Assembly: GCF_041477585.1 (NCBI RefSeq)
Contig: NZ_JBGNYA010000001.1
Coordinates: 2,728,001 to 2,792,000 of the forward strand
DNA length: 64,000 nucleotides
Direction of reading: 5' to 3'
From: Halobellus sp. MBLA0158
Lineage (GTDB): Archaea > Halobacteriota > Halobacteria > Halobacteriales > Haloferacaceae
The notes beneath the pieces are model-generated. The model searched no databases and was not told where the DNA came from. It saw nothing but the letters and a program-made list of their open reading frames with translations. The position numbers and the translations under genes are program-made. Below, piece after piece: positions 16,808 to 58,395 of this stretch; position 1 is the stretch's first letter, and each line of letters starts with the position of its first letter.

Positions 16808-18039
16808 TGCAGGTCGTCGCGATCAATATGGTTCGGTTCGCTCCGGACCTTTCGACTGGCTTCGATGGCGCGTTGGGCTTCAGTGGGGTCTTCAGCAGCG
16901 ATCGCCTGGTCCTCGAAGCCACGGGCGACCGTTTCGACGAGCTCCTGCGCCTCGGGATCGAGCGTCTGCCGGCAGTGGATGCAGAAATCCAACTCCTGCG
17001 GCGTCGGTTTCTGGCAGCGCGGGCAGATGACGGGTGCGACTTCCAGGCCGCTGTCGTCTGTCTCGACGTCCTCGCCGTGGAGCGCGGCGTAGGAGTGTTC
17101 CAGAGACTCGTCGCCGAACTCGGCTTCGTAGCGGGCGGTGTGTTCGGAGCCGGGGACACGACCCTGGCGCTGTTCGATCTTCCCGCGATCCATTCCAAGG
17201 CGCGTGAGCCAGCGCGTGTTCGACTTCCGGAAGTTCGTCGGCGTTGCGTCCTTGTTGACGTCGGCAGCTCTGGCCGCCCGCCGGAACGTCTTGTAGACCA
17301 TCGTCGAGGAGATCGTCTCCGGGCGGTCGAGTTTCGACCACAGCGGCGCTTCCGGATCTCCGAAGCCCGGATGCCGATCGGGGGCGAGCCAACGGTTCAG
17401 ATACGGCACAGCGACGACGAGATGAACGACGCGCTCGCCCTGTTTGCCGTCGACGTGGACGGCCATCGAGTGCTCGGAGTCGAAGACGTCGCCGATAGTG
17501 AGGTCCTGGAGCTCGCCGGAGCGCAGGCCCGCCTCGAACTGGAGGATGATCAGCGCCTCGTCGCGAGCGTTCGAGGTCTCTTCAAGCATCAGTCGCATCT
17601 CATCGTAGGTGATGAGATCGCGCTCGCTGGGACGCGGGTTGAAGTCGTTGGGCGTGTCGGTCGGGATCCACGCCAGCGATTCCGGCGGATCGTCGGTGAT
17701 CTGGTCCGCGTAGCGGCCGATCGCTCGGAGATCGCGTCGGTAGTCCTTGTTGGTGTGGACGTTCTCGTACTCGCGGTTGATCCAGCGGACGATCTCCTCG
17801 GCCGCATCACGATCCTCCAGGGCCGCGACGAGCGTGTCGCCGCCGACGTTCTCGGCGATGATGGCGCCGTGCCGCAGGATGTCGCGGTGACGGTAGTCGC
17901 CAGCCTTAGACGGCACCAACGCGATGTTGTCGGAGATGTCAAGCAACAGCTCGCGGGCGGCTTCAGTGTCGCCCCGCTCGCCCTTTTGGAGCCGGTCGCG
18001 GATTCGGTCGACCGCCTCACGTGGATCACTGCGCGCCAT
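16777..18039 (-). CDS. Tyrosine recombinase (integrase) with C-terminal zinc ribbon
   Basis: About 420 residues. The N-terminal SAM-like core-binding domain (about 60-125) is followed by the catalytic domain: first Arg in FEAGLRSGEL (about R173), second Arg in TPTNFRKSNTRW (about R271) and the probable nucleophile Tyr in EHTARYEAEFG (about Y304). Box II normally reads HxxR. Here Asn replaces His. A CxxC...CxxC zinc ribbon (CPRCQKPTPQELDFCIHC, about 339-356) follows, then a helical tail. The start at 18,039 gives MARSDP. A start two codons earlier is possible. The gene adjoins the tRNA-fragment att site, so it should integrate and excise the element. Confidence 0.9.
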   Translation of the reverse strand: MARSDPREAVDRIRDRLQKGERGDTEAARELLLDISDNIALVPSKAGDYRHRDILRHGAIIAENVGGDTLVAALEDRDAAEEIVRWINREYENVHTNKDYRRDLRAIGRYADQITDDPPESLAWIPTDTPNDFNPRPSERDLITYDEMRLMLEETSNARDEALIILQFEAGLRSGELQDLTIGDVFDSEHSMAVHVDGKQGERVVHLVVAVPYLNRWLAPDRHPGFGDPEAPLWSKLDRPETISSTMVYKTFRRAARAADVNKDATPTNFRKSNTRWLTRLGMDRGKIEQRQGRVPGSEHTARYEAEFGDESLEHSYAALHGEDVETDDSGLEVAPVICPRCQKPTPQELDFCIHCRQTLDPEAQELVETVARGFEDQAIAAEDPTEAQRAIEASRKVRSEPNHIDRDDLHQLASRLSDE

Positions 18040-29298: not shown

Positions 29299-29349
29299 CG
29301 GTCACAGAATTCGGCAGAGAAATGACTACGCGCGAGATGTCGGAAAAAG

Positions 29350-29422
29350 CGCCCGAGGCGGGATTTGAACCCGCGTCACGACCGTGACAGGGTCGTATGA
29401 TGGGCCACTACACCACCCGGGC
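29350..29422 (-). tRNA. tRNA-Asp (anticodon GTC), second of two in transcription order
   Basis: Reading the minus strand from 29,422: acceptor GCCCGGG pairs with CTCGGGC with one G-U pair, the anticodon loop is CTGTCAC with GTC, the T arm is GCGGG-TTCAAAT-CCCGC and the discriminator is G73. The 73 nt gene has no encoded CCA. It is an exact repeat of the gene 21 bp upstream. Confidence 0.95.
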
Positions 29423-29442
29423 ACACATCGGAGCGAAGACAA

Positions 29443-29515
29443 CGCCCGAGGCGGGATTTGAACCCGCGTCACGACCGTGACAGGGTCGTATGATGGGCCA
29501 CTACACCACCCGGGC
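29443..29515 (-). tRNA. tRNA-Asp (anticodon GTC), first of two in transcription order
   Basis: Same 73-nt sequence as the copy at 29,350-29,422: acceptor GCCCGGG/CTCGGGC, anticodon GTC, G73. The two are 93 bp apart start to start and probably form one precursor transcript. A TATA-like TAATTAGAC lies 26-34 nt upstream of this copy only. Confidence 0.95.
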
Positions 29516-49728: not shown

Positions 49729-50724
49729 ATGATCTCGAAGGGCTGTGAGCAGTGCGCGAAGGGGGGCAAGATGGTGCTCTTCGTCTACGGTTACTGCGAC
49801 CAGCGCGACTGCTTTTACTGCCCGCTCGGCGAGAACCGCAAGAACGTCACCGACGTCTACGCCAACGAACGCCTCGTCGAGTCCGACGAGGACGTGATCG
49901 AGGAGGCAAAGCGGATGAACGCCCTGGGGACCTCGATCACCGGCGGCGAGCCCCAGGAGGCGATGGCGAAGACGACGCGGTACCTCTCGCTGTTGAAAGA
50001 CGAGTTCGGCGAGGACCACCACACGCACCTCTACACCGGCATCACCGGCGGCCGGGAGAATATGCGCCGCCTCTCGGAGGCGGGGCTCGACGAGATCCGG
50101 TTCCACCCGCCGTACGAGCTGTGGGGCGACCTCCACGGGACCGAGTGGGAGGACATCCTCTACATCGCTCGCGAGGAGGGACTCACGCCCGCGTTCGAGA
50201 TCCCCGGGATCCGCGCCGAAGCGGAGTTCCTGGAGTTCCTCGACGAGGGCGCCGCGGAGTTCTGCAACATCAACGAGTTCGAGATGAGCGACGGCAACTA
50301 CCGCCGGATGCAAGAGCAGGGCTACGAACTCCAGGAGAACCACATGTCCGCCGTCGACGGCTCGAAAGAGGAGATCCTGGAGACGATGGGCGACCACGAG
50401 CGGGTGTACTTCTGCACCTCCGTGTTCAAAGACGCCGCGCAACACCGGAACCGCCTCAAGCGGATGGCCCGGAACATCCGGCGGCCGTTCGACGAGGTGA
50501 CGGACGACGGGACGCTCGTCTACGGCAAGACCTGGATCCCGCCGGAGGAACTCGACGCCCTCGGCGTGCCCGAGGAGTTCTACACCGTCAAGTCCGATCA
50601 CGTCGAGGTGGCGTGGTGGCTCCTCGAAGAGATGATCGAGGAGGGCGACGTCCCCGAGGGCGAGATCGTCGAGCAGTATCCGACCGTCGAGGGGACGGTC
50701 GTCGAGCGAACGCCGCTGGCGTAG
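49729..50724 (+). CDS. Radical SAM protein (331 aa)
   Basis: The cluster motif is CDQRDCFYC (C23, C28, C31), a CX4CX2C form rather than the usual CX3CX2C. GGEPQEAM follows as the SAM-contacting GGE motif and the remainder is a TIM barrel with YTGITGGRENMRRL. A second Cys pair (GCEQCAKGGK, C6 and C9) precedes the cluster. This type is common in haloarchaea and has no assigned reaction. The last 33 bp of the gene are repeated 128 bp downstream around a 95 bp insertion. Confidence 0.88.
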   Translation: MISKGCEQCAKGGKMVLFVYGYCDQRDCFYCPLGENRKNVTDVYANERLVESDEDVIEEAKRMNALGTSITGGEPQEAMAKTTRYLSLLKDEFGEDHHTHLYTGITGGRENMRRLSEAGLDEIRFHPPYELWGDLHGTEWEDILYIAREEGLTPAFEIPGIRAEAEFLEFLDEGAAEFCNINEFEMSDGNYRRMQEQGYELQENHMSAVDGSKEEILETMGDHERVYFCTSVFKDAAQHRNRLKRMARNIRRPFDEVTDDGTLVYGKTWIPPEELDALGVPEEFYTVKSDHVEVAWWLLEEMIEEGDVPEGEIVEQYPTVEGTVVERTPLA

Positions 50725-50852
50725 TCTCGCGAGAGCGAGAGCGGCCGAGCCGGCAGGCGAGGCTTTTGGTCCAGGTTTTGCCGAGCGAGCGTCGCGAGCG
50801 CAGCGCAAAAGCTGGGAGCGGGACGGTCGTCGAGCGAACGCCGCTGGCGTAG
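50692..50852 (+). repeat. 95-bp insertion flanked by a 33-bp direct repeat of the gene 3' end
   Basis: The 33 bp from 50,692 to 50,724, ending exactly at the TAG stop of the radical SAM gene, recur unchanged at 50,820-50,852. The 95 bp between them (50,725-50,819) contain CTCGC-GAGA-GCGAG, a hairpin, and CTTTTGG...GTTTTGC...GCGCAAAAG, a longer interrupted inverted repeat. T5 follows the second copy at 50,858-50,862. The gene itself keeps an intact end. I recall similar 'GGTCCAGGTTTTTGC...AAAAG' sequences as dispersed repeats in haloarchaea, but cannot check this. Confidence 0.85.
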
Positions 50853-50861
50853 GTCGATTTT

Positions 50862-51557
50862 TCATCGCGATCTGACGGACCGCCCGTCCGATTCCCGCGT
50901 CAGCGCCGCGTAGAGGCTCGGGACCAGCGCGATCGCGGTCCCGACGAGTAGCCAGTCGGTCAGCGGACCGCCGCGCGCGACGCCGGCGGCGACGATCCCG
51001 AGACCGAGGAGCGCGCCGCCCGCGGCCGCCCGCCGCTTCGTCCGCGCCGCGAACGCGACGCCGCGGGCCGTGCCGTAGAGCGCGGCGCCGAGTCCGGCGG
51101 CGATGCCGACCGCGGTACCGACGTACGGCGCGCCGATGGCGAGTCCTGCGACGACAAGCGCGGTCCCGACGGTGCCGCCGGCAAACACCGTCGCCGTCGG
51201 GGAGAGCGGATTGACGTCCGCGCCGTAGCGAGTGGCGTATCCCGCGGGCGGCGCGGCGAGGAGCGCGGCGATCAAGAGCGCGAAGAGGGCGCCCCGCGGA
51301 GTCGGATCGTCGAGGAGCACGCCGACGGCGCCCGCGGCGGCGACGGCGAGGCCGAGCGCGAGCACCGGCCGAGGGCGGATCGTCGCCGCGGGGTCGTCGT
51401 CGCGGAGGATCCCGAAGGCGACGAACGGGTAGGCGACGCCGGCCGCGACGACGACGGTCGCATAGAGGCCCCACCCGAGGGCGACGCCCGAGACGAGCGC
51501 GGAGAGCCCGAGGAAGACGCCGGTGACGACTGCGAACTCGGGGACGCGGCGGCTCAT
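50862..51557 (-). CDS. Multi-span membrane protein (231 aa)
   Basis: ATG 51,557 gives MSRRVPEFAVVTGVFLGLSALVSGVALGW and about seven Ala/Gly/Val-rich spans, with a short basic cytoplasmic loop (AARTKRRAAAGG) and a charged end (TRESDGRSVRSR). The longer frame upstream is not protein-like. No family recognised. It ends convergent with the repeat region of the radical SAM gene. Confidence 0.75.
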   Translation of the reverse strand: MSRRVPEFAVVTGVFLGLSALVSGVALGWGLYATVVVAAGVAYPFVAFGILRDDDPAATIRPRPVLALGLAVAAAGAVGVLLDDPTPRGALFALLIAALLAAPPAGYATRYGADVNPLSPTATVFAGGTVGTALVVAGLAIGAPYVGTAVGIAAGLGAALYGTARGVAFAARTKRRAAAGGALLGLGIVAAGVARGGPLTDWLLVGTAIALVPSLYAALTRESDGRSVRSR

Positions 51558-51676
51558 ACGGGGGCTGGGAACGAGACGGCCGAAAGCGTTGCGGTGGGCG
51601 GCGGTCCCGACACCGGCACGGCGCTCGGGGGTGGGGACCCGCAAGCGTTTAGACAGGCCGTGGAGTACGTCACGCT

Positions 51677-52144
51677 ATGTCCGACTGTCCGCTGGCCGAC
51701 GACTGCCCCCGGTACTCCGAGCGGATCGACGGGATGGGGTGTCAGTACTACGGCGACCGGGGCGGTGCCGAATGGTGTAACAACTACGACCAGCCGATCC
51801 GCGACCTGAAGGCCCAGCCGGTCAAGCCGGGCGAGGAGATCGTCGTCGAGGTCGACGACATCCACGAGAGCGGGGCCGGCGTCGGCCGGACCGACGACGG
51901 CTTCATCGTCCTCATCGACGGAATCCTCCCGCCGGCGCGCGCGGTGGTCCGGATCGACCGAGTGAAGTCGAACCACGCGACCGCCAAGAAGGTCGTCGAG
52001 CGGCTCCCCTTGGACGAGGACGAAGCCGACGAGAGCGACACCGACGAGCGCGCAGACGAGGGAAGCGAGTCCGACGAGGGCGGGAGCAGCGGGCCCGATC
52101 GCCCGACCGCGCTCGGCAGCCGGGACAACTTCTGGGGCGGATAG
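51677..52144 (+). CDS. TRAM-domain protein (155 aa)
   Basis: Residues about 48-110 (PVKPGEEIVVEVDDIHESGAGVG...GFIVLIDGILPPARAVVRIDRV) form a TRAM beta-barrel, known from tRNA-modifying enzymes and archaeal RNA-chaperone-like proteins. The N-terminus carries a Cys-rich segment (CPLADDCPRYSERIDGMGCQYYG...WCNNY) that may bind zinc, and the C-terminus is an acidic tail. Haloarchaeal single-TRAM proteins are thought to act as cold-shock-like RNA binders. The Cys-rich front is a distinctive addition. Confidence 0.85.
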   Translation: MSDCPLADDCPRYSERIDGMGCQYYGDRGGAEWCNNYDQPIRDLKAQPVKPGEEIVVEVDDIHESGAGVGRTDDGFIVLIDGILPPARAVVRIDRVKSNHATAKKVVERLPLDEDEADESDTDERADEGSESDEGGSSGPDRPTALGSRDNFWGG

Positions 52145-52193
52145 CCCGCCCACGGCGGCGGCGCGAACGGCACGGACAGTCGCAGTATTCCGG

Positions 52194-52255
52194 TTTTTTG
52201 CTCCGAGTTCTCCTCCGAAGCGGCAGTACCGCGGCCGCGCTTCTGTATCTTTTTT
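52194..52255 (+). terminator. Two T6 runs after the TRAM-protein gene
   Basis: T6 runs at 52,194-52,199 and 52,250-52,255 lie between the TRAM gene (end 52,144) and the Tfx gene (start 52,280). Archaeal termination at oligo-T is expected here. The second run may also serve as part of the Tfx promoter (CTTTTTTGC about 28 nt before the ATG). Confidence 0.55.
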
Positions 52256-52279
52256 GCGCGCGGGGCGCTACGGACGCGT

Positions 52280-52843
52280 ATGGACGACGCCGAGCGCGAC
52301 GGCGGCGACAGCGCGGACGGGTCGGGAACCGGAAACGGCGGGAGCGAGGACGCCGCCGGGAGCGACACGCCCGGGCTGGCGTCGACAGCCGACGTCGACG
52401 AGATCCTCGCCGAGACCGGCTTCGACGCGGACGAGAGCGTCCTGACGCGGCGGCAGGCCGAGGTGCTCGTCCTGCGCGAGCAGGGCGTCCGGCAGTCCGA
52501 GATCGCCTCGATGCTCGGGACGTCGCGGGCGAACGTCTCCAGCGTGGAGTCGAGCGCGCGCCGGAACGTCGAGCGGGCGCGCGAGACCGTCGCGTTCGCG
52601 GAGGCGCTCGCCGCCCCGGTCCGGATCACCGTCGAGGCGGGCGCCGACCTCTACGACGTCCCGAAACAGGTCTACGACGCCTGCGACGAGGCGGGCGTGA
52701 AGGTGAACCGGACCGCGCCGGAGCTGATGAAAGCCATCTCCGACGCCGCCGGCGACGCCGTTCAGGGTCGGGAGGTCCGCGAGCCCCTGCTCGTGGGCGT
52801 GACGACCGGCGGGCGCGTGCAGGTGCGGCGCTCTGTCGACTGA
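52280..52843 (+). CDS. tfx: Tfx-family transcription regulator
   Basis: After an acidic disordered N-terminus of about 50 residues comes VLTRRQAEVLVLREQGVRQSEIASMLGTSRANVSSVESSAR, the Tfx helix-turn-helix, and then the C-terminal domain with TVEAGADLYDVPKQVYDACDEAGVKV. Tfx was first described as a regulator of the molybdenum formylmethanofuran dehydrogenase operon in methanogens. In haloarchaea the target is not known. The N-terminal extension is longer than in methanogens. Confidence 0.87.
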   Translation: MDDAERDGGDSADGSGTGNGGSEDAAGSDTPGLASTADVDEILAETGFDADESVLTRRQAEVLVLREQGVRQSEIASMLGTSRANVSSVESSARRNVERARETVAFAEALAAPVRITVEAGADLYDVPKQVYDACDEAGVKVNRTAPELMKAISDAAGDAVQGREVREPLLVGVTTGGRVQVRRSVD

Positions 52844-52854
52844 AAACTGCGGCC

Positions 52855-53946
52855 TCAGAACTCCCCGCGGTCTTCGAGGTCCCGGACGAGGCGCTTGACG
52901 TCCTGCGCCCGCTCTTTCGGCACGACGAGCACGCGGTCGTCCCACGCCACGACGGCCAGTTCCGAGACGCCGACGAGCGACACGTGCGCGCCGTCGGCGG
53001 CGACGACGTTGTCCGCGGCGTCGAGCGAACGGACGGTGACGTCGCCGGCCGCGACGGTGCCGTCGGCGTCGGGCTCGACCACGCGCTCTAGGGCGTCCCA
53101 CGACCCGACGTCGTCCCAGCGGAAGGAGACGGGGACGACCGCGACGTCGTCGGCGACCTCGAAGATCGCGTAGTCGACGCTCACCGGATCGGCGGCGTCG
53201 AACGCCGCTCGGACGTCGGGATCGACGGCGTCGGCCGCGAGATCGGCGGGCAAGTCCGCCGCGCGGAGCGCGTCGTAGAGCTCGAAGATCGGCGAGGTCG
53301 CGGCCGCTTCGAGGAAGACCTCGGGGCGCCACGCGAACAGCCCGGCGTTCCAGTAGTGGCCGGCCGCGACGTACGACTCGGCGGTGTCGGCGTCGGGCTT
53401 CTCGTGGAACGAGCGGACCGGCGCCCAGTCCGCGTCTGGGCCGTCGGCGTCGGCGTCCGCGTCGGGCTCGATGTAGCCGTAGCCGGTCTCCGGGCGGGTC
53501 GGCTCGACGCCGAACGTAACGAGGCGGTCCGTCGCGGCGGCGACGTCGACGCCGCGACCGACGGCCTCGGCGAAGCCCTCGCCGACGAAGTGGTCGCTCG
53601 GCAGCGCCAGGACCACGCAGTCGTCGTAGGCGGCGTCGATCCGGGCCGTCGCGTAGAGCAGCGCCGGGGCGGTGTCGCGGCCCGCGGGCTCGACGAGCAC
53701 GTCGGCGTCGGGAGCGCGCTCGCGGACCCCCTCGGCGTACGACTCGCGCGTGACCACGACGACCTCGTCGGCGACCTCGCGGGCGCGGGAGACGGTCCGC
53801 TCCAGCAGCGACGCCTCGCCGAGGAGCGGGAGGAACTGCTTCGGGCGATCGGCGCGGCTCGCCGGGTAGAGCCGCGAGCCCGTGCCGCCGGCGAGGACGA
53901 CCGCGACGACTGGCCGCTCGGTCTCGGTGTGGGTCGACTCGCTCAT
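52855..53946 (-). CDS. Mannose-1-phosphate guanylyltransferase-like nucleotidyltransferase
   Basis: The 363-residue protein has VVAVVLAGGTGSRLYPASRADRPKQFLPLLG, the nucleotidyltransferase signature with the GMP-type PKQFLPL, then ALPSDHFVG, ETGYGYIEPD and FHEKPDADTAESY, as in ManC/GMP. It would make GDP-mannose from mannose-1-phosphate and GTP for glycans of the S-layer. There is no C-terminal isomerase domain. It overlaps the preceding small gene by 4 bp. The sugar specificity is inferred from motif similarity only. Confidence 0.85.
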   Translation of the reverse strand: MSESTHTETERPVVAVVLAGGTGSRLYPASRADRPKQFLPLLGEASLLERTVSRAREVADEVVVVTRESYAEGVRERAPDADVLVEPAGRDTAPALLYATARIDAAYDDCVVLALPSDHFVGEGFAEAVGRGVDVAAATDRLVTFGVEPTRPETGYGYIEPDADADADGPDADWAPVRSFHEKPDADTAESYVAAGHYWNAGLFAWRPEVFLEAAATSPIFELYDALRAADLPADLAADAVDPDVRAAFDAADPVSVDYAIFEVADDVAVVPVSFRWDDVGSWDALERVVEPDADGTVAAGDVTVRSLDAADNVVAADGAHVSLVGVSELAVVAWDDRVLVVPKERAQDVKRLVRDLEDRGEF

Positions 53947-54251
53947 CCCCACGTCTCCACGATCCCGTCGCGGACGTCCTGTGCGCACCCCTCGCAATCG
54001 GGGTGGTCCGCCTCGAAGCACGACGGCCGGCCCTCGTCGTCGACGTCGACGGCCCGACGGTCGGCGTGGCGGCGACAGACGATGCGGACGCGACCCTCGT
54101 CGTCGCGCGGGAGGGCGCCGGCGGCGTCGGTGCCGGCCGCCTGGCCCTCGGAGTCCACGCGACCTTCCTGGTATGCGTCGCGGGCGCGGGCGTACTGCCG
54201 CCCGGCCTCGCGGAACTTCTCTCGCAGGAGCCGTTCGAGGCGGTCGCTCAT
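53943..54251 (-). CDS. Small Cys-containing protein (102 aa)
   Basis: The N-terminal helix (LERLLREKFREAGRQYARARDAYQEG) is followed by a Cys/His set (IVCRRHADRR...SCFEADHPDCEGCAQ) that may bind zinc. It overlaps the nucleotidyltransferase gene by 4 bp, so they are co-transcribed. No function assigned. Confidence 0.75.
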   Translation of the reverse strand: MSDRLERLLREKFREAGRQYARARDAYQEGRVDSEGQAAGTDAAGALPRDDEGRVRIVCRRHADRRAVDVDDEGRPSCFEADHPDCEGCAQDVRDGIVETWG

Positions 54252-54419
54252 CGGTCACTGGTCGAACTGCGACCGGTATAGGTCCGTTGGTGGCGGCGTC
54301 CGACGGGACGGAGAACGCCCGAATTTCCACTTTCACTCCGGTCACGACAGTTTATTACCGATTGGGAACCAAGCCCCGTGTGCCTCCCAACGAAAACCAA
54401 GGTGGAGGCGATTGCAACC

Positions 54420-55349
54420 ATGTCAGACCTGCGAACGCACGCAGCGGAGATAGCCGAACAGTTCTCGGACCACTTGGACATCGACCAGTCGGACGTCGAA
54501 GAGCGCCTGGAGACGCTCGTAAACGAGTACCGCGTGCCCGTCGAGGAGGCGCGGCGCTCGGTCGAAAACAGCTACCTCGAAGAGGCCGGCCTCGAACGCG
54601 ACGAGATCGGCCAGGGCGGCAACGACGAGGTCCGCCTGACCGACATCGACCAGGACGAGCAGTGGATCGACGTGACCGCGAAGGTCGTCGAACTCTGGGA
54701 GCCCAGAAGCGAGTCGATCGCCCAGGTCGGCCTGCTCGGCGACGAGTCCGGCCGGACGAAGTTCGTCGCCTTCGAGACCTCCGACCTACCGGAGCTCGAA
54801 GAGGGCGCGGTCTACCGCCTCGGGAACGTCGTCACCGACGAGTACCAGGGCAACTTCTCGGTAAAGCTCAACAAGACCACGACCATCGAGAAGCTCGATA
54901 CGGACATCGAGGTCGGCGACGACGCCGTCACCGTCGAGGGAGCGCTCGTGGACATTCAGTCCGGGAGCGGCCTGATCAAGCGGTGCCCCGAGGAGGGCTG
55001 TACGCGCGTCCTCCAGAACGGGCGCTGCTCCGAGCACGGCGACGTCGAAGGCGAGTTCGACCTGCGGATCAAGGGCGTCCTCGACGACGGCGAGACCGTC
55101 CACGAGGTCATCTTCGGCCGCGAGGTCACAGAAGACCTCACCGGGATCGAGCTGGAAGAGGCCCAGCAGATGGCGATGGACGCCCTCGACACCACCGTCG
55201 TCGTCGACGAGATGCGCGAGGACCTGGTCGGGACGTACTACCGCGTCTCCGGCCCGGAGCTCGGGCGCTACGTCCTCGCCGACGAGGTCGAGCGGCTCAC
55301 CGAACCGGCGGACCCGGAAGCGGTCCTGATCAAAGCGAGGTCGATCTGA
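54420..55349 (+). CDS. rpa: Replication protein A (single-strand DNA-binding), OB-fold protein
   Basis: ATG 54,420, 12 nt after GGTGGAGG, gives 309 residues with at least two OB-folds (about 70-170 and 175-270) and a zinc motif CPEEGCTRVLQNGRCSEHG (CX4C...CX2H) in the second. A helical N-terminal region precedes them. RPA binds single-stranded DNA in replication and repair. It starts the operon with the RPA-associated protein 1 bp downstream. An upstream in-frame start would include the promoter region. Confidence 0.92.
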   Translation: MSDLRTHAAEIAEQFSDHLDIDQSDVEERLETLVNEYRVPVEEARRSVENSYLEEAGLERDEIGQGGNDEVRLTDIDQDEQWIDVTAKVVELWEPRSESIAQVGLLGDESGRTKFVAFETSDLPELEEGAVYRLGNVVTDEYQGNFSVKLNKTTTIEKLDTDIEVGDDAVTVEGALVDIQSGSGLIKRCPEEGCTRVLQNGRCSEHGDVEGEFDLRIKGVLDDGETVHEVIFGREVTEDLTGIELEEAQQMAMDALDTTVVVDEMREDLVGTYYRVSGPELGRYVLADEVERLTEPADPEAVLIKARSI

Positions 55350-55350
55350 A

Positions 55351-56010
55351 ATGAGTGCCAACGAGATTCCCTCCCGCGAAGTCGCCCGGCGTGTGTTCGC
55401 AGACGAATTCAACGACGCCGCCTTCACCTTCAAAGAGTCCGACGACGACCGCGCGCCGGTCTACCTGCTGCTCCCGACGGGGGCGAAGGCCAACCGCGTG
55501 TTCTTCGTCGGCACGCTGACCGAGAAAGACGACGTCGGCGAGGACAACGAGTACTGGCGCGGCCGCATCGTCGACCCCACGGGGACGTTCTTCGTCTACG
55601 CGGGGCAGTACCAGCCCGAGGCCGCGAGCACGCTCCGGGACCTCGAACCGCCCGCCTACGTCGCCGTCGTGGGCAAGCCGCGGACCTACGAGACCGACGA
55701 CGGCTCGGTCAACGTCTCCGTCAGGCCGGAGTCGATCCAGGTGGTCGACGCCGCGACCCGGGACCGCTGGGTCGTCGAGACCGCCGAGCGGACGCTCGAT
55801 CGCATCGACGCCTTCGACGAGGAGGGCAACGAGTACGCGCGGATGGCCCGCGAGGAGTACGACCTCCCGATCGATCGATACAAGGAGTCGACCGTCTCGG
55901 CGCTGGAGGGCCTCGAAGAGTCCGACGGCGACGAGCTCGGCCTCGGCGACAGCGGTCCCGCGGACGCGGGTGCGGACGAGCCGGACGCCGACCTCCAGCC
56001 CGAGCCGTAG
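55351..56010 (+). CDS. RPA-associated OB-fold protein (COG3390)
   Basis: A 219-residue OB-fold protein (VYLLLPTGAKANRVFFVGTLTEKDD... and FFVYAGQYQPEAASTLRDL), the standard partner of haloarchaeal RPA, encoded 1 bp behind it. The two proteins form a complex on single-stranded DNA and give resistance to DNA damage in Haloferax. The C-terminal 40 residues are an acidic tail. The third gene often found with this pair, a phosphoesterase, is absent here. Confidence 0.9.
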   Translation: MSANEIPSREVARRVFADEFNDAAFTFKESDDDRAPVYLLLPTGAKANRVFFVGTLTEKDDVGEDNEYWRGRIVDPTGTFFVYAGQYQPEAASTLRDLEPPAYVAVVGKPRTYETDDGSVNVSVRPESIQVVDAATRDRWVVETAERTLDRIDAFDEEGNEYARMAREEYDLPIDRYKESTVSALEGLEESDGDELGLGDSGPADAGADEPDADLQPEP

Positions 56011-56088
56011 CCCGCTGCCGGCGGCCGCCCTTTTATGCTGTCTGACGAAGCATTAAGTGGGTAGGACGACGAACTGGGGAACGAGCCA

Positions 56089-56499
56089 ATGGGCAACAAA
56101 AACAAGACCATCTCGTTCCGCGTCAACGAGGACGCGTTCGAGACGCTCCGAGAGATCGCCGAGGAGCGCGACATCTCCCTGTCGGCGGTCTTCCGCGACT
56201 ACGTCGACACGCTCGTTGCCCACGACGGCCAGGTCCAGGTCGTCCCCGAACACGAACTCGAACAGCTCCGCAACGGCGACGAGGAGAGCTTCCCGCCGAA
56301 AGTCAAGGTGCCGAAGAGCTTCGTTCGGGAGCACGAGCGCCTCGAACTGGAGGCCGATCACCTCCGCGAGCAACTCGAAGAGCACAAGCGGTACGTGAAC
56401 TACCTCCGCGAGCAGCTCGAAGACGAGAACGAGGAGGTCATCCAGCTCGAAGACCTCGACGGCAGCGAGGCGGATGAGCCCTCCTTTCGACTTGGATAG
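56089..56499 (+). CDS. Ribbon-helix-helix protein with coiled coil (136 aa)
   Basis: The N-terminal 45 residues (NKTISFRVNEDAFETLREIAEERDISLSAVFRDYV) are a ribbon-helix-helix DNA-binding fold. The second half is a heptad-rich coiled coil (LELEADHLREQLEEHKRYVNYLREQLED). A promoter-like CATTAAGTG lies about 35 nt upstream. The protein should form a dimer with a long stalk. It follows the RPA operon but has its own promoter. Confidence 0.8.
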   Translation: MGNKNKTISFRVNEDAFETLREIAEERDISLSAVFRDYVDTLVAHDGQVQVVPEHELEQLRNGDEESFPPKVKVPKSFVREHERLELEADHLREQLEEHKRYVNYLREQLEDENEEVIQLEDLDGSEADEPSFRLG

Positions 56500-56560
56500 C
56501 CTCGGCATCGACCTCGATCGGCCGCCGTCGCGCGACCGCCTGCGGGACGACTCGCCCTGA
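56474..56560 (+). CDS. Possible 28-residue overlapping peptide
   Basis: ATG 56,474 overlaps the end of the ribbon-helix-helix gene in another frame and gives MSPPFDLDSLGIDLDRPPSR... then TGA. The acidic-basic composition is natural for haloarchaea, but there is no independent support apart from the coupled position. Confidence 0.3.
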   Translation: MSPPFDLDSLGIDLDRPPSRDRLRDDSP

Positions 56561-56576
56561 GCGCCGTCTCAGAGCC

Positions 56577-57032
56577 TTAGCCGGAGAGCGCCTTCCGAGC
56601 TTTCCGCATCTTCGCTTCCATCTCGTCGTCGCCATCGACCTCGGCGAGCGTCTCGGCCGCCTCAAGCGTCCGAACGGCGCTGTCGAGGAACGAGAGGACG
56701 TCGCCGGGGTAGGCGTACAGCATATACTCGTCGCTCATCACGTCGACGATGGCGTCGGGGCCGAGCCCCTGCGCGCGGAGCTCCAGGAGGTAGCGCACGA
56801 ACTGCCGCTCGGGGTAGCCGGTGTAGAGGTCGTCGGGATTCTCCGGGTCGAGGAAGTCCTCCGCGAAGTCAAGCAGCCGGTCGCGGGTGGCGTCGTCGAG
56901 CTTCGCGAGGCCTTCCCCGGAGTAGAGGACGTCCATCGTCGCCCCCGAGAACGCCCCCTTCGGGATGTTGACGTCGAGCTGGGAGACGATCTGGCGGTGG
57001 TTCTTCAGGTAGATCTTGTCCGTGATGGCCAC
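56577..57032 (-). CDS. Conserved-looking haloarchaeal protein (151 aa)
   Basis: The protein starts MAITDKIYLKNHRQIVSQLDVNIPKGAF and is mostly helical (DATRDRLLDFAEDFLDPE...RQFVRYLLELRAQGLGPDAIVDVMSDEYMLYAYPGDVLSFL). The N-terminal motif KNHRQIxSQL resembles proteins I associate with haloarchaeal RPA neighbourhoods, but I do not recognise a family. It is convergent with the ribbon-helix-helix gene and divergent from tRNA-His. Confidence 0.8.
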   Translation of the reverse strand: MAITDKIYLKNHRQIVSQLDVNIPKGAFSGATMDVLYSGEGLAKLDDATRDRLLDFAEDFLDPENPDDLYTGYPERQFVRYLLELRAQGLGPDAIVDVMSDEYMLYAYPGDVLSFLDSAVRTLEAAETLAEVDGDDEMEAKMRKARKALSG

Positions 57033-57177
57033 GGTTGGCCGTCCGTAGCGCGCTGTGGCTCAAAAGTCTCGCGGTGGGACTCGGCGAGCGCGCCGTCGAG
57101 CGGATCGTGTGAGACCGGCGCACTCCACCCGAGAGTCGTAACGTATTTGCCTTCGACCGGGATACCTCAAGGTGCGT

Positions 57178-57251
57178 GTCCGGGTTAGGGTAGTGGACTA
57201 TCCTTCAGCCTTGTGGAGGCTGAGACGCGGGTTCAATTCTCGCACCCGGAC
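57178..57251 (+). tRNA. tRNA-His (anticodon GTG)
   Basis: An encoded G-1 at 57,178 pairs with C73 (57,251), as tRNA-His requires. The acceptor is TCCGGGT/ACCCGGA, the anticodon stem CAGCC/GGCTG encloses TTGTGGA with GTG, and the T arm is GCGGG-TTCAATT-CTCGC. There is no encoded CCA. The last 22 nt, with 6 nt of trailer, are duplicated 122 bp downstream. Confidence 0.95.
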
Positions 57252-57379
57252 CTTCTGTCTACGAACGAAGTGAGTAGACGAATGTCCGCACGGAGAAATC
57301 AACCCTATCAGTCGCGCGCAGCGAACGCAGTGAGCGAGCACGTCTGATTTCGGTTCAATTCTCGCACCCGGACCTTCTG
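57230..57379 (+). repeat. 94-bp insertion flanked by a 28-bp direct repeat of the tRNA-His 3' end
   Basis: The 28 bp at 57,230-57,257 (T-arm to 6 nt past the discriminator) recur unchanged at 57,352-57,379. The 94 bp between hold two copies of CGAACGNAGTGAG (57,262-57,274 and 57,322-57,334, 60 bp apart) and the hairpin GTCTAC...GTAGAC at the left edge. The tRNA stays functional on the left. The arrangement closely resembles the insertion at 50,692-50,852. Confidence 0.88.
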
Positions 57380-57456
57380 CGATACACTGCGCCCGCGAGC
57401 GGTCGCTCTGTCGAGAACGACGCGAGCGAACCGTCCGTCACGGACGTCCGAATCGC

Positions 57457-58395
57457 TCACACCACCTGATTCGCGAGCGAGTCGCCGTCGCGAATCCGCG
57501 TGAGGTTCTCCCGAATCAGGGCGGCCACGCGCCCGGCGTAGTCCCGCGTCGCGCCGGCGGCGTGGGGCGTCACGATCACGTTCTCCAGCTCCCACAGCGG
57601 CGAGTCGTCGGGGAGGGGCTCCTCCTCGAAGACGTCCAGCGCCGCGCCCGCGATCTCGCCGGCCTCCAGCGCGTCCACGAGGGCGTCCTGGTCGACCACG
57701 CCGCCGCGCGCGACGTTGACGAGGTAGGCGTCGTCCCGCATCGCCGCGAGTTCGTCGGCGCCGACGAGGTCGCGCGTCCGTTCGGAGAGCGGGACCGTCA
57801 GGACCACGAAGCGCGCGTCCGCGACGGCCTCGGTGAGCGCGTCCGGCGTGTAGAGGTCGTCAACCGAGGGGATCGGCGTCGGCGTCCGGCGCACGCCCGC
57901 GACGTCCATCCCGACGCCCTGCGCGCGCGAGGTGACGCCCTGGCCGAGCGTCCCGAGGCCGACGACACAGACGGTCTCTCCCGACAGCGTGAACGTCTCG
58001 TGCCAGTCGGGGTAGCGCCACGTCCGCTCGGGCTCGTTGTCGCGGTAGACGTGGAGCCGGCGGGCGAACTGGAGCAGATAGCCCAGAACCGTGTCGCCGA
58101 CGGCGTCGCCGTGGACGCCGCTGCTGTTCGTGAGCCGGATTCCCGCCCGCTCCAGGTCGTCGAGCGGGAAGGCGTCGACGCCCGCGAGGACGCAGTGGAT
58201 CCACTGGAGGTCCGCGTCGAGGAACGCCTCGCTGTAGGTGAACGTCACCACGCCGTCGAGGCCGTCGGTGTCGGCGTCGCCGTCCATCCCCTCGACGACG
58301 ACGGGGGCGTCGCCGAGTTCCTCGCGCAGCTTCGACGGGGGAAAGAGCTCCGATACCGAGGGGTGGATCCCGAGTACGAGTCCGTCCTCTGACAT
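57457..58395 (-). CDS. D-2-hydroxyacid dehydrogenase (312 aa)
   Basis: ATG 58,395 gives MSEDGLVLGIHPSVSELFPP. The Rossmann fold shows VVGLGTLGQGVTSRAQG, and the catalytic set is R in NVARGGVVDQ, E in FEEEPLPDDSPLW and H in TPHAAGATRDY. The enzyme reduces 2-keto acids with NAD(P)H. The substrate is unknown. The upstream open frame adds unrelated residues and is ignored. Its end is convergent with the tRNA-His insertion. Confidence 0.92.
   Translation of the reverse strand: MSEDGLVLGIHPSVSELFPPSKLREELGDAPVVVEGMDGDADTDGLDGVVTFTYSEAFLDADLQWIHCVLAGVDAFPLDDLERAGIRLTNSSGVHGDAVGDTVLGYLLQFARRLHVYRDNEPERTWRYPDWHETFTLSGETVCVVGLGTLGQGVTSRAQGVGMDVAGVRRTPTPIPSVDDLYTPDALTEAVADARFVVLTVPLSERTRDLVGADELAAMRDDAYLVNVARGGVVDQDALVDALEAGEIAGAALDVFEEEPLPDDSPLWELENVIVTPHAAGATRDYAGRVAALIRENLTRIRDGDSLANQVV

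Follow-up and report, generated by a model that had tools for sequence, protein, structure and literature searches.

Two repeat pairs behind a protein gene and a tRNA gene

The stretch of DNA analysed here (the window) comprises 64,000 nucleotides of Halobellus sp. MBLA0158 (contig NZ_JBGNYA010000001.1, positions 2,728,001 to 2,792,000 of the forward strand) and contains two perfect direct repeats, each of which encloses a short insert behind the 3' end of a gene. The first pair (GGGACGGTCGTCGAGCGAACGCCGCTGGCGTAG, 33 bp) lies at 50692-50724 and 50820-50852 and encloses 95 bp (50725-50819); its left copy ends at the stop codon of an open reading frame (ORF, 49729-50724). The second pair (GGTTCAATTCTCGCACCCGGACCTTCTG, 28 bp) lies at 57230-57257 and 57352-57379 and encloses 94 bp (57258-57351); its left copy consists of the final 23 nt of a tRNA-His gene (57179-57252) followed by TTCTG. 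The parts of the two elements are listed below, with D for the duplicated gene end, H1 and H2 for the hairpins and I for the inverted copy of the tRNA end; the P family is the protein-gene type to which element 1 belongs.

Element 1
49729-50724, + strand: host protein gene 1, radical-SAM-like, the last 33 bp of which are D1 (ORF; PF04055)
50692-50724, + strand: D1, the gene end with the stop codon (perfect 33-bp repeat)
50725-50740, + strand: H1-like hairpin TCTCGC-GAGA-GCGAGA (sequence; DNA and RNA folds)
50763-50781, + strand: left arm of the P family, CTTTTGGTCCAGGTTTTGC (conserved in three other carriers at the site)
50782-50802, + strand: H2 hairpin with the tandem-GA module GCGAGCGTCGCGAGC at 50785 (module search, sequence)
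50803-50819, + strand: right arm, GCGCAAAAGCTGGGAGC (comparison with other carriers)
50820-50852, + strand: D2 (33 of 33 positions identical to D1)

Element 2
57179-57252, + strand: host gene 2, tRNA-His (GTG) (ARAGORN, Rfam)
57230-57257, + strand: D1, starting two bases ahead of the T-loop and running through the tRNA 3' end into TTCTG (perfect 28-bp repeat)
57258-57278, + strand: H1 hairpin TCTAC-GA-AC-GAA-GT-GA-GTAGA (fold, module search, sequence)
57280-57304, + strand: I, imperfect inverted repeat of the tRNA-His 3' end, GAATGTCCGCACGGAGAAATCAACC (RNA fold pairing with D2; family statistics)
57305-57348, + strand: H2 conserved core, CTATCAGTCGCGCGCAGCGAACGCAGTGAGCGAGCACGTCTGAT (class-wide strict-core pattern; compensatory pairs)
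57352-57379, + strand: D2 (perfect 28-bp copy)

The match of host gene 1 to PF04055 (E 1.7e-6, 28.7 bits) was just under the curated cut-off of 29.5.

The window holds four perfect direct repeats of at least 16 bp spaced 40-400 bp apart, namely the two pairs, a tandem tRNA-Asp pair and one 17-mer, whereas each of 20 Markov-5 controls yielded 0 or 1 such repeat, the longest being 17 bp. A 464-kb sample, made up of the window and 20 stretches of 20 kb from the same genome, contained 12 perfect repeats of at least 17 bp at 60-260 bp, whereas three controls contained 1, 0 and 0. Among these 12 were both pairs, two tRNA-Val-like repeats and the tRNA-Asp pair, as well as several that resemble ordinary coding repeats. 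A chance origin of both pairs is ruled out by the controls for the window and for the sample. The unbiased count is that on the own genome, in which Rfam identified 48 tRNA genes, every one of them examined. A downstream D copy (21 nt from the T-loop on, ≤4 mismatches, within 330 bp) was present at 14 of the 48 genes, nine of the copies being perfect, against one gene on the upstream side; the tandem tRNA-Asp pair counts once per side, as one of the 14 and as the sole upstream case. The 13-nt core of I (≤2 mismatches, within 200 bp) was found downstream of 11 tRNA genes and upstream of none. In a further control, with 45 of the 48 loci parsed, the D of a different tRNA was found within 280 bp (≤2 mismatches) in only 3 of 1978 pairs.

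Both repeat pairs and their inserts, as described in the original prediction, are thus real, and the outcome that would have counted against it, no excess of such pairs over controls, was not observed. The early hairpin that it assigned to each insert is present as well (50725-50740 and 57258-57278, in the sequence and in the folds). The shared TCT start carries no weight, as it is not conserved in relatives. The proposal that the two inserts are related holds in part. Their direct alignment is weak, 10 of 500 shuffles scoring equally well, and their conserved cores differ, being CAGTCGCGCGCAGCGA in the tRNA type and TTTTGGTCCAGCTTTTGC in the protein-gene type; close sequence kinship is ruled out on these grounds. 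The inserts therefore represent two sequence families that have in common the plan and a tandem-GA hairpin of the form stem-GA-nn-NNN-nn-GA-stem, which is found at 50785 in element 1 and at 57261 and 57321 in element 2. In its strict form this module matched 13 times in the 464-kb sample, against 3 times in either control; of the two inserts, that of tRNA-His alone attains the strict form.

The tandem tRNA-Asp genes of the window lie at 29349-29515, are identical over 73 bp and stand 93 bp apart. Three of the fetched loci (L223, L232 and L237) likewise have tRNA-Asp genes in tandem, there followed by units.

tRNA-tail arrays in haloarchaea

Comparison of element 2 with loci fetched from relatives revealed tandem arrays behind tRNA genes with the unit plan D-H1-I-H2-D, in which D begins with the GG that precedes the T-loop and extends to the tRNA end, I is the inverted copy, and H1 and H2 are tandem-GA hairpins. 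A typical H2 reads CYACCAGTCGCGCGCAGCGAnnGNAnnGAGCGAGCACGTCTGGTTYC, and 64 of the 104 distinct units fell into this type or a loosely similar one. The unit length (period) has a median of 122 bp, with 10th and 90th percentiles of 105 and 154 bp. Apart from tRNA-His, arrays were found behind Gly, Lys, Val, Leu, Glu, Arg and Pro tRNA genes; the parsed set comprises 112 units of 13 amino-acid types (the Asp rows including the tandem tRNA-Asp genes), and the 75 units in which I could be anchored represent 25 isoacceptors. Of 31 parsed tRNA-His loci, 19 carry further downstream copies of the tRNA end, a proportion that is not a frequency because the loci were ranked by similarity. Copies in the tRNA-His arrays of relatives recur every ~100-165 bp, and the spacers within one array are often unlike. 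More generally, single arrays join unlike units between identical D copies, and the H2 core is common to different tRNA types.

Among 391 genomes of the class, which represent 86 genera, 99 genomes from 35 genera have the strict H2 core, and the reversed-pattern control had no match among the matches listed. Named carriers among the matches listed are Halorubrum, Haloarcula, Halosimplex, Halobellus, Halorhabdus, Natronorubrum and Halobacterium. After 87 16-mer matches lacking the rest of the core had been set aside, 48 matches were kept, 36 of which have a tRNA upstream within the stretch. When the longest perfect repeat around each of these was determined with no start assumed, its start coincided with GGTTC in 23 matches and was displaced by one base at most in another 5. 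Across 153 tRNA loci a copy of the tRNA end was found at ≤6 mismatches in 92 and was perfect in 61, which again is no frequency, since most of these loci were brought in via element searches.

Fit of the inverted copy to its host tRNA and structure of H2

For the analysis of I, 75 of the 112 units were used, the 37 without an exact anchor being dropped and repeated units of one array being counted separately. I was complementary to its own tRNA at base 57 (R57) in 71 and at base 59 (W59) in 74 of the 75 units, where the anchor leaves two choices at each base. Over 13 positions in the T-stem, acceptor stem and discriminator, I matched its own tRNA 438 times. Permutation among isoacceptors gave a mean of 363 matches (standard deviation 16, maximum 418), and none of 2000 permutations was as good. 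The signal is located in the T-stem beside the loop.

The structure of H2 is conserved. Among 59 distinct copies, 57 and 50 retain the two outer pairs, compared with ~31 expected after shuffling; the outer pair of the helix framed by the tandem GA was paired in 57 of 59, compared with 28 expected. The loop was GNA in 39 of the 59.

A second family at protein-gene ends

Element 1 belongs to the P family, whose core reads TTTTGGTCCAGCTTTTGC...GCAAAAGGTGG. The query matched in 14 of the 17 genus genomes searched, the own genome included. Element 1 is present at its gene end in four of 14 (G000, G002, G008 and G010) and absent from the other ten, and G008 holds it twice as an exact tandem doubling of 136 bp. 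Within the four carrier genomes, D1 and D2 are identical at 33, 32, 33 and 32 of 33 positions. Between species, the inserts are only 80-90% alike and D1 shows 2-6 differences in its 33 positions. If the carriers inherited one insertion from a common ancestor, D1 and D2 have evolved in concert; the alternative is independent insertions.

Copies of the P family were also found at other gene ends in G004 and, as a longer array, in G005. A third kind of site, in three genus genomes, places P-family copies between 20-24 bp GATGTACGCCCGGAACACTAACGG-like repeats (loci L138, L141 and L146). Rfam at gathering matched no RNA in six P-family loci, these three included. In what was sampled, protein-gene ends are rare and tRNA 3' ends are the main home of the units.

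A repeat of a type unlike the units was seen in another locus (L119), where, from position 17481 onward, three tandem copies of CGAATCGAATCAGATCGGACAGTTCGGATC stand 39 bp apart near the end of an ORF.

Comparison with the RtT repeats of Escherichia coli

The RtT repeats (rttR, RF00391) have long been regarded as a peculiarity of E. coli tyrT. In K-12 (NC_000913.3, 1286400-1288200), three 178-bp units follow tyrV, and each of these non-coding units ends in 19 nt that repeat the tRNA-Tyr end perfectly from within the T-loop onward. Tandem closure by the end of the host tRNA is equally a property of the archaeal arrays. Each K-12 unit also has GGGGAAGGAT, the inverse of ATCCTTCCCC within the tRNA-end copy (10 nt), which corresponds to an inverted stretch able to pair with the tRNA end; this match was equalled in 55 of 2000 shuffles and is modest taken alone. 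Units are likewise present behind tRNA-Pro (19-nt copy, 168 bp) and between tRNA-Lys and tRNA-Val (18 nt, 100 bp), and the Tyr, Pro and Lys units (L330, L333 and L337) have similar hairpins, each with its own tRNA end and a stretch able to pair with it. A strict tandem-GA hairpin occurs at tRNA-Pro (CTCGAGCGAAGCGAGAG), and the strict module was not found in the K-12 Tyr locus or in the Lys locus. Two papers report a covarying tandem-GA motif in RtT RNA (PMC8250186, PMC7657543), to which the covariation of the archaeal H2 outer pair corresponds. In RefSeq the E. coli units are labelled RtT small RNA (sRNA), processed from the tyrT transcript.

The number of E. coli units varies between strains. 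One, two, three and six units are annotated after the second tRNA-Tyr gene in four strains besides K-12, and tRNA-Pro is followed by one unit in two strains and by none in two others. The tRNA-Pro unit query was covered to at least 80% in 2635 of 5426 E. coli genomes.

The two systems also differ. The E. coli units measure 178 (Tyr), 168 (Pro) and 100 bp (Lys) as against the archaeal median given above, and the archaeal units stand behind many isoacceptors with a tailored I and have a second family at protein-gene ends. The RF00391 covariance model found no match in the whole window at gathering, none at E≤5 in 50600-57500, and none at E≤1 in three loci of relatives (L053, L036 and L044), so that the archaeal units are not members of Rfam's RtT family. 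In plan, the archaeal arrays resemble RtT, the E. coli repeats being a close look-alike.

The original prediction had proposed a tiny element class that targets gene ends, restores them by carrying the end sequence, and would be undescribed. The class is real, with the amendment that it comprises two sequence families and that protein-gene ends are its rare sites in what was sampled. Its novelty holds in part: the RtT repeats are a close precedent, and the titles and abstract beginnings of the open-licence papers searched contained no description of such arrays in archaea. The units are best filed as a real and widespread class, an archaeal variant of RtT-like tRNA-tail repeats together with a smaller protein-gene family of the same plan. 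With an archaeal counterpart that stands behind 25 isoacceptors, occurs in 35 of the 86 sampled genera and has both a tailored I and a common tandem-GA hairpin, what was a single oddity can be studied comparatively across two domains of life. Integrating mobile DNA lands in tRNA genes more often than anywhere else, and the arrays are a warning that perfect repeats at the end of a tRNA do not prove an integrated virus or plasmid. The loci collected here are at hand for testing gain, loss and transcription.

Proposed origin and turnover of the units

With moderate confidence, we favour the reading that short non-coding hairpin units have been added behind gene 3' ends with duplication of the end, and that the tRNA-His unit belongs to an RtT-like tRNA-tail family of haloarchaea. 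Units would move and restore the gene end. In the arrays, a unit lies directly behind the tRNA, which thus retains an intact end, with a further copy closing the unit, and the comparison of element 1 within the genus shows that a site can be occupied, doubled or empty. Recombination between two D copies may multiply or delete whole units and keep the D copies alike, and pairing of D with I, a hairpin-templated correction, could keep I matched to its own tRNA. Fresh copies would adjoin the tRNA and older ones would decay at the far end: of 37 multi-copy arrays, 14 have the D nearest to the tRNA better preserved than the farthest one, 2 show the opposite and 21 are tied. The founding event, the weakest step of the proposal, might have been an insertion with duplication of the gene end; of four enzyme families tested, tyrosine recombinases alone were present in every one of the four array-bearing genomes.

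Several observations weigh against this reading. The polarity of D includes the 21 ties, is reduced, at ≤3 mismatches, to 8 arrays in favour and 1 against out of 29, and comes from loci that were mostly found through one H2 type. No unit was observed moving, and the strain-level evidence is wholly from E. coli and not from the archaeon. The acceptor half of I barely tracks its own tRNA (2.07 against 1.93 matches of 7). Twelve of the 31 parsed tRNA-His loci are without any D copy, and three P-family copies (L002, from this genome, L139 and L143) have no flanking D. In 20 of the 48 H2-core matches the longest perfect repeat starts away from the T-loop; among them are repeats of the same array that are longer or shorter, and at least 4 chance matches in bacteria or viruses. 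The unit-less E. coli tRNA-Pro allele retains the first 89 bases of the unit, which thus reads as loss or gain between tandem copies and not as a clean insertion. Finally, tyrosine recombinases, the candidate enzymes considered below, matched in 14 of 14 control genomes.

Alternative explanations

The units might instead owe their conservation to an RNA function: transcribed as tRNA 3' trailers, they would be processed at every D into structured RNAs by the enzymes that mature tRNA 3' ends, and D would be kept perfect as a processing signal. This is possible, although we consider it rather unlikely. The RNA fold of 57258-57379 yields H1 and an I-H2-D hairpin with a mismatched centre, the minimum-energy structure being the same as the centroid, and the compensatory changes in H2, the covarying motif of RtT RNA and the RefSeq sRNA labels point in the same direction. 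However, the RNA fold z-scores are modest (-1.75 and -2.14), and the E. coli tRNA-Pro unit sits behind a terminator-like hairpin with a T run, which is itself repeated. Folding as single-stranded DNA was weak, with z-scores of 0.19 to -1.58 over five stretches (for 57258-57379, 0.19 on the + strand and -1.26 on the - strand, relative to shuffles), and sense-strand G.T versus A.C mismatches do not separate RNA from DNA.

It is also conceivable, with a small probability, that I-H2-D serves as a single-stranded recombination site which a tyrosine recombinase joins to the 7-nt T-loop of the tRNA gene, so that arrays grow at the tRNA end as ORF-less integron-like cassettes and the enterobacterial RtT repeats would be the same system. 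Integron cassette arrays resemble the archaeal arrays in that tandem units are added at one end, as proposed here, and in that an imperfect palindrome with a mismatched centre, such as I-H2-D may form, lies at the unit ends; they differ in that the archaeal units carry no gene and that D is 22-28 nt of exact tRNA sequence. The tyrosine recombinases of the four array-bearing genomes were listed as general Phage_integrase matches, and their presence in all four says little because all 14 controls match too.

Replication error alone, namely quasi-palindrome template switching and slippage at tRNA genes with neither a mobile unit nor a function, is improbable to about the same degree. Such errors would account for the exact or near-exact tandem doublings (G008; L053 and L037) and for the imperfect palindromes formed by I and D, but not readily for an H2 core that is common to tRNA types and to so many genera. 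Plain tandem slippage as the only cause is ruled out by the unlike units between identical D copies.

That the arrays are remnant attachment (att) sites of ordinary integrated viruses or plasmids is very improbable. tRNA genes are the usual attB, and archaeal integrative elements with tyrosine recombinases use them and restore an intact copy (PMC8371274); in this genome, some integrase matches lie 1-3 kb from tRNA genes. Those elements carry an integrase, whereas no integrase gene lies between the D copies of the window, the inserts being merely 94 and 95 bp. Moreover, in nine stretches near integrases the long tRNA repeats start in or before the anticodon arm and not at the T-loop (index 28 or 29 in tRNA-Thr, 24 in tRNA-Leu, and 3-7 in tRNA-Glu, where the repeat amounts to a nearly whole second gene). 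The arrays thus do not look like att scars, and att scars of islands are ruled out by this different repeat boundary. Viral carriage was rejected as well, since the search of IMG/VR viral contigs gave no convincing unit: 13 of 14 matches were without the rest of the core, the 14th was without tRNA and D, and the exact P core was absent from these contigs.

A likely integrated element was seen at G000:C1:632601-692600 (L316-L318), where a partial tRNA-Thr copy lies ~50 kb from tRNA-Thr(GGT) in a region with integrase matches.

The SMR, PATE and MITE elements of Haloquadratum resemble the units in being haloarchaeal, palindromic, transposase-free and, for SMR-A, ~110 bp long (PMC3119063). The same paper describes SMR and PATE as lacking target duplication and SMR-A as preferring PATE palindromes, whereas the window units duplicate the gene end, perfect D copies flanking both inserts, and have their home at tRNA ends.

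Casposons insert in a staggered manner and thereby duplicate a tRNA end, and D-unit-D arrays resemble CRISPR, but insertion by a Cas1- or casposase-like enzyme that duplicates its target at tRNA 3' ends is the least credible of the alternatives and is mostly refuted for present-day activity, because no Cas1 family member was found in any of the four array-bearing genomes, including the one with the most H2 cores in the class-wide search (G030). Cas1 was accordingly rejected as a needed present-day enzyme. Y1 transposase was rejected in the same way, being present in two of the four genomes and absent from G000 and G010, and so was reverse transcriptase, which was found in G000 only. The reverse transcriptase match, an RVT_1 domain (64.6 bits) with no counterpart in the other three genomes, lies at G000:C1:2807896-2808303, ~1 kb from a phage-integrase match at 2806259-2806813.

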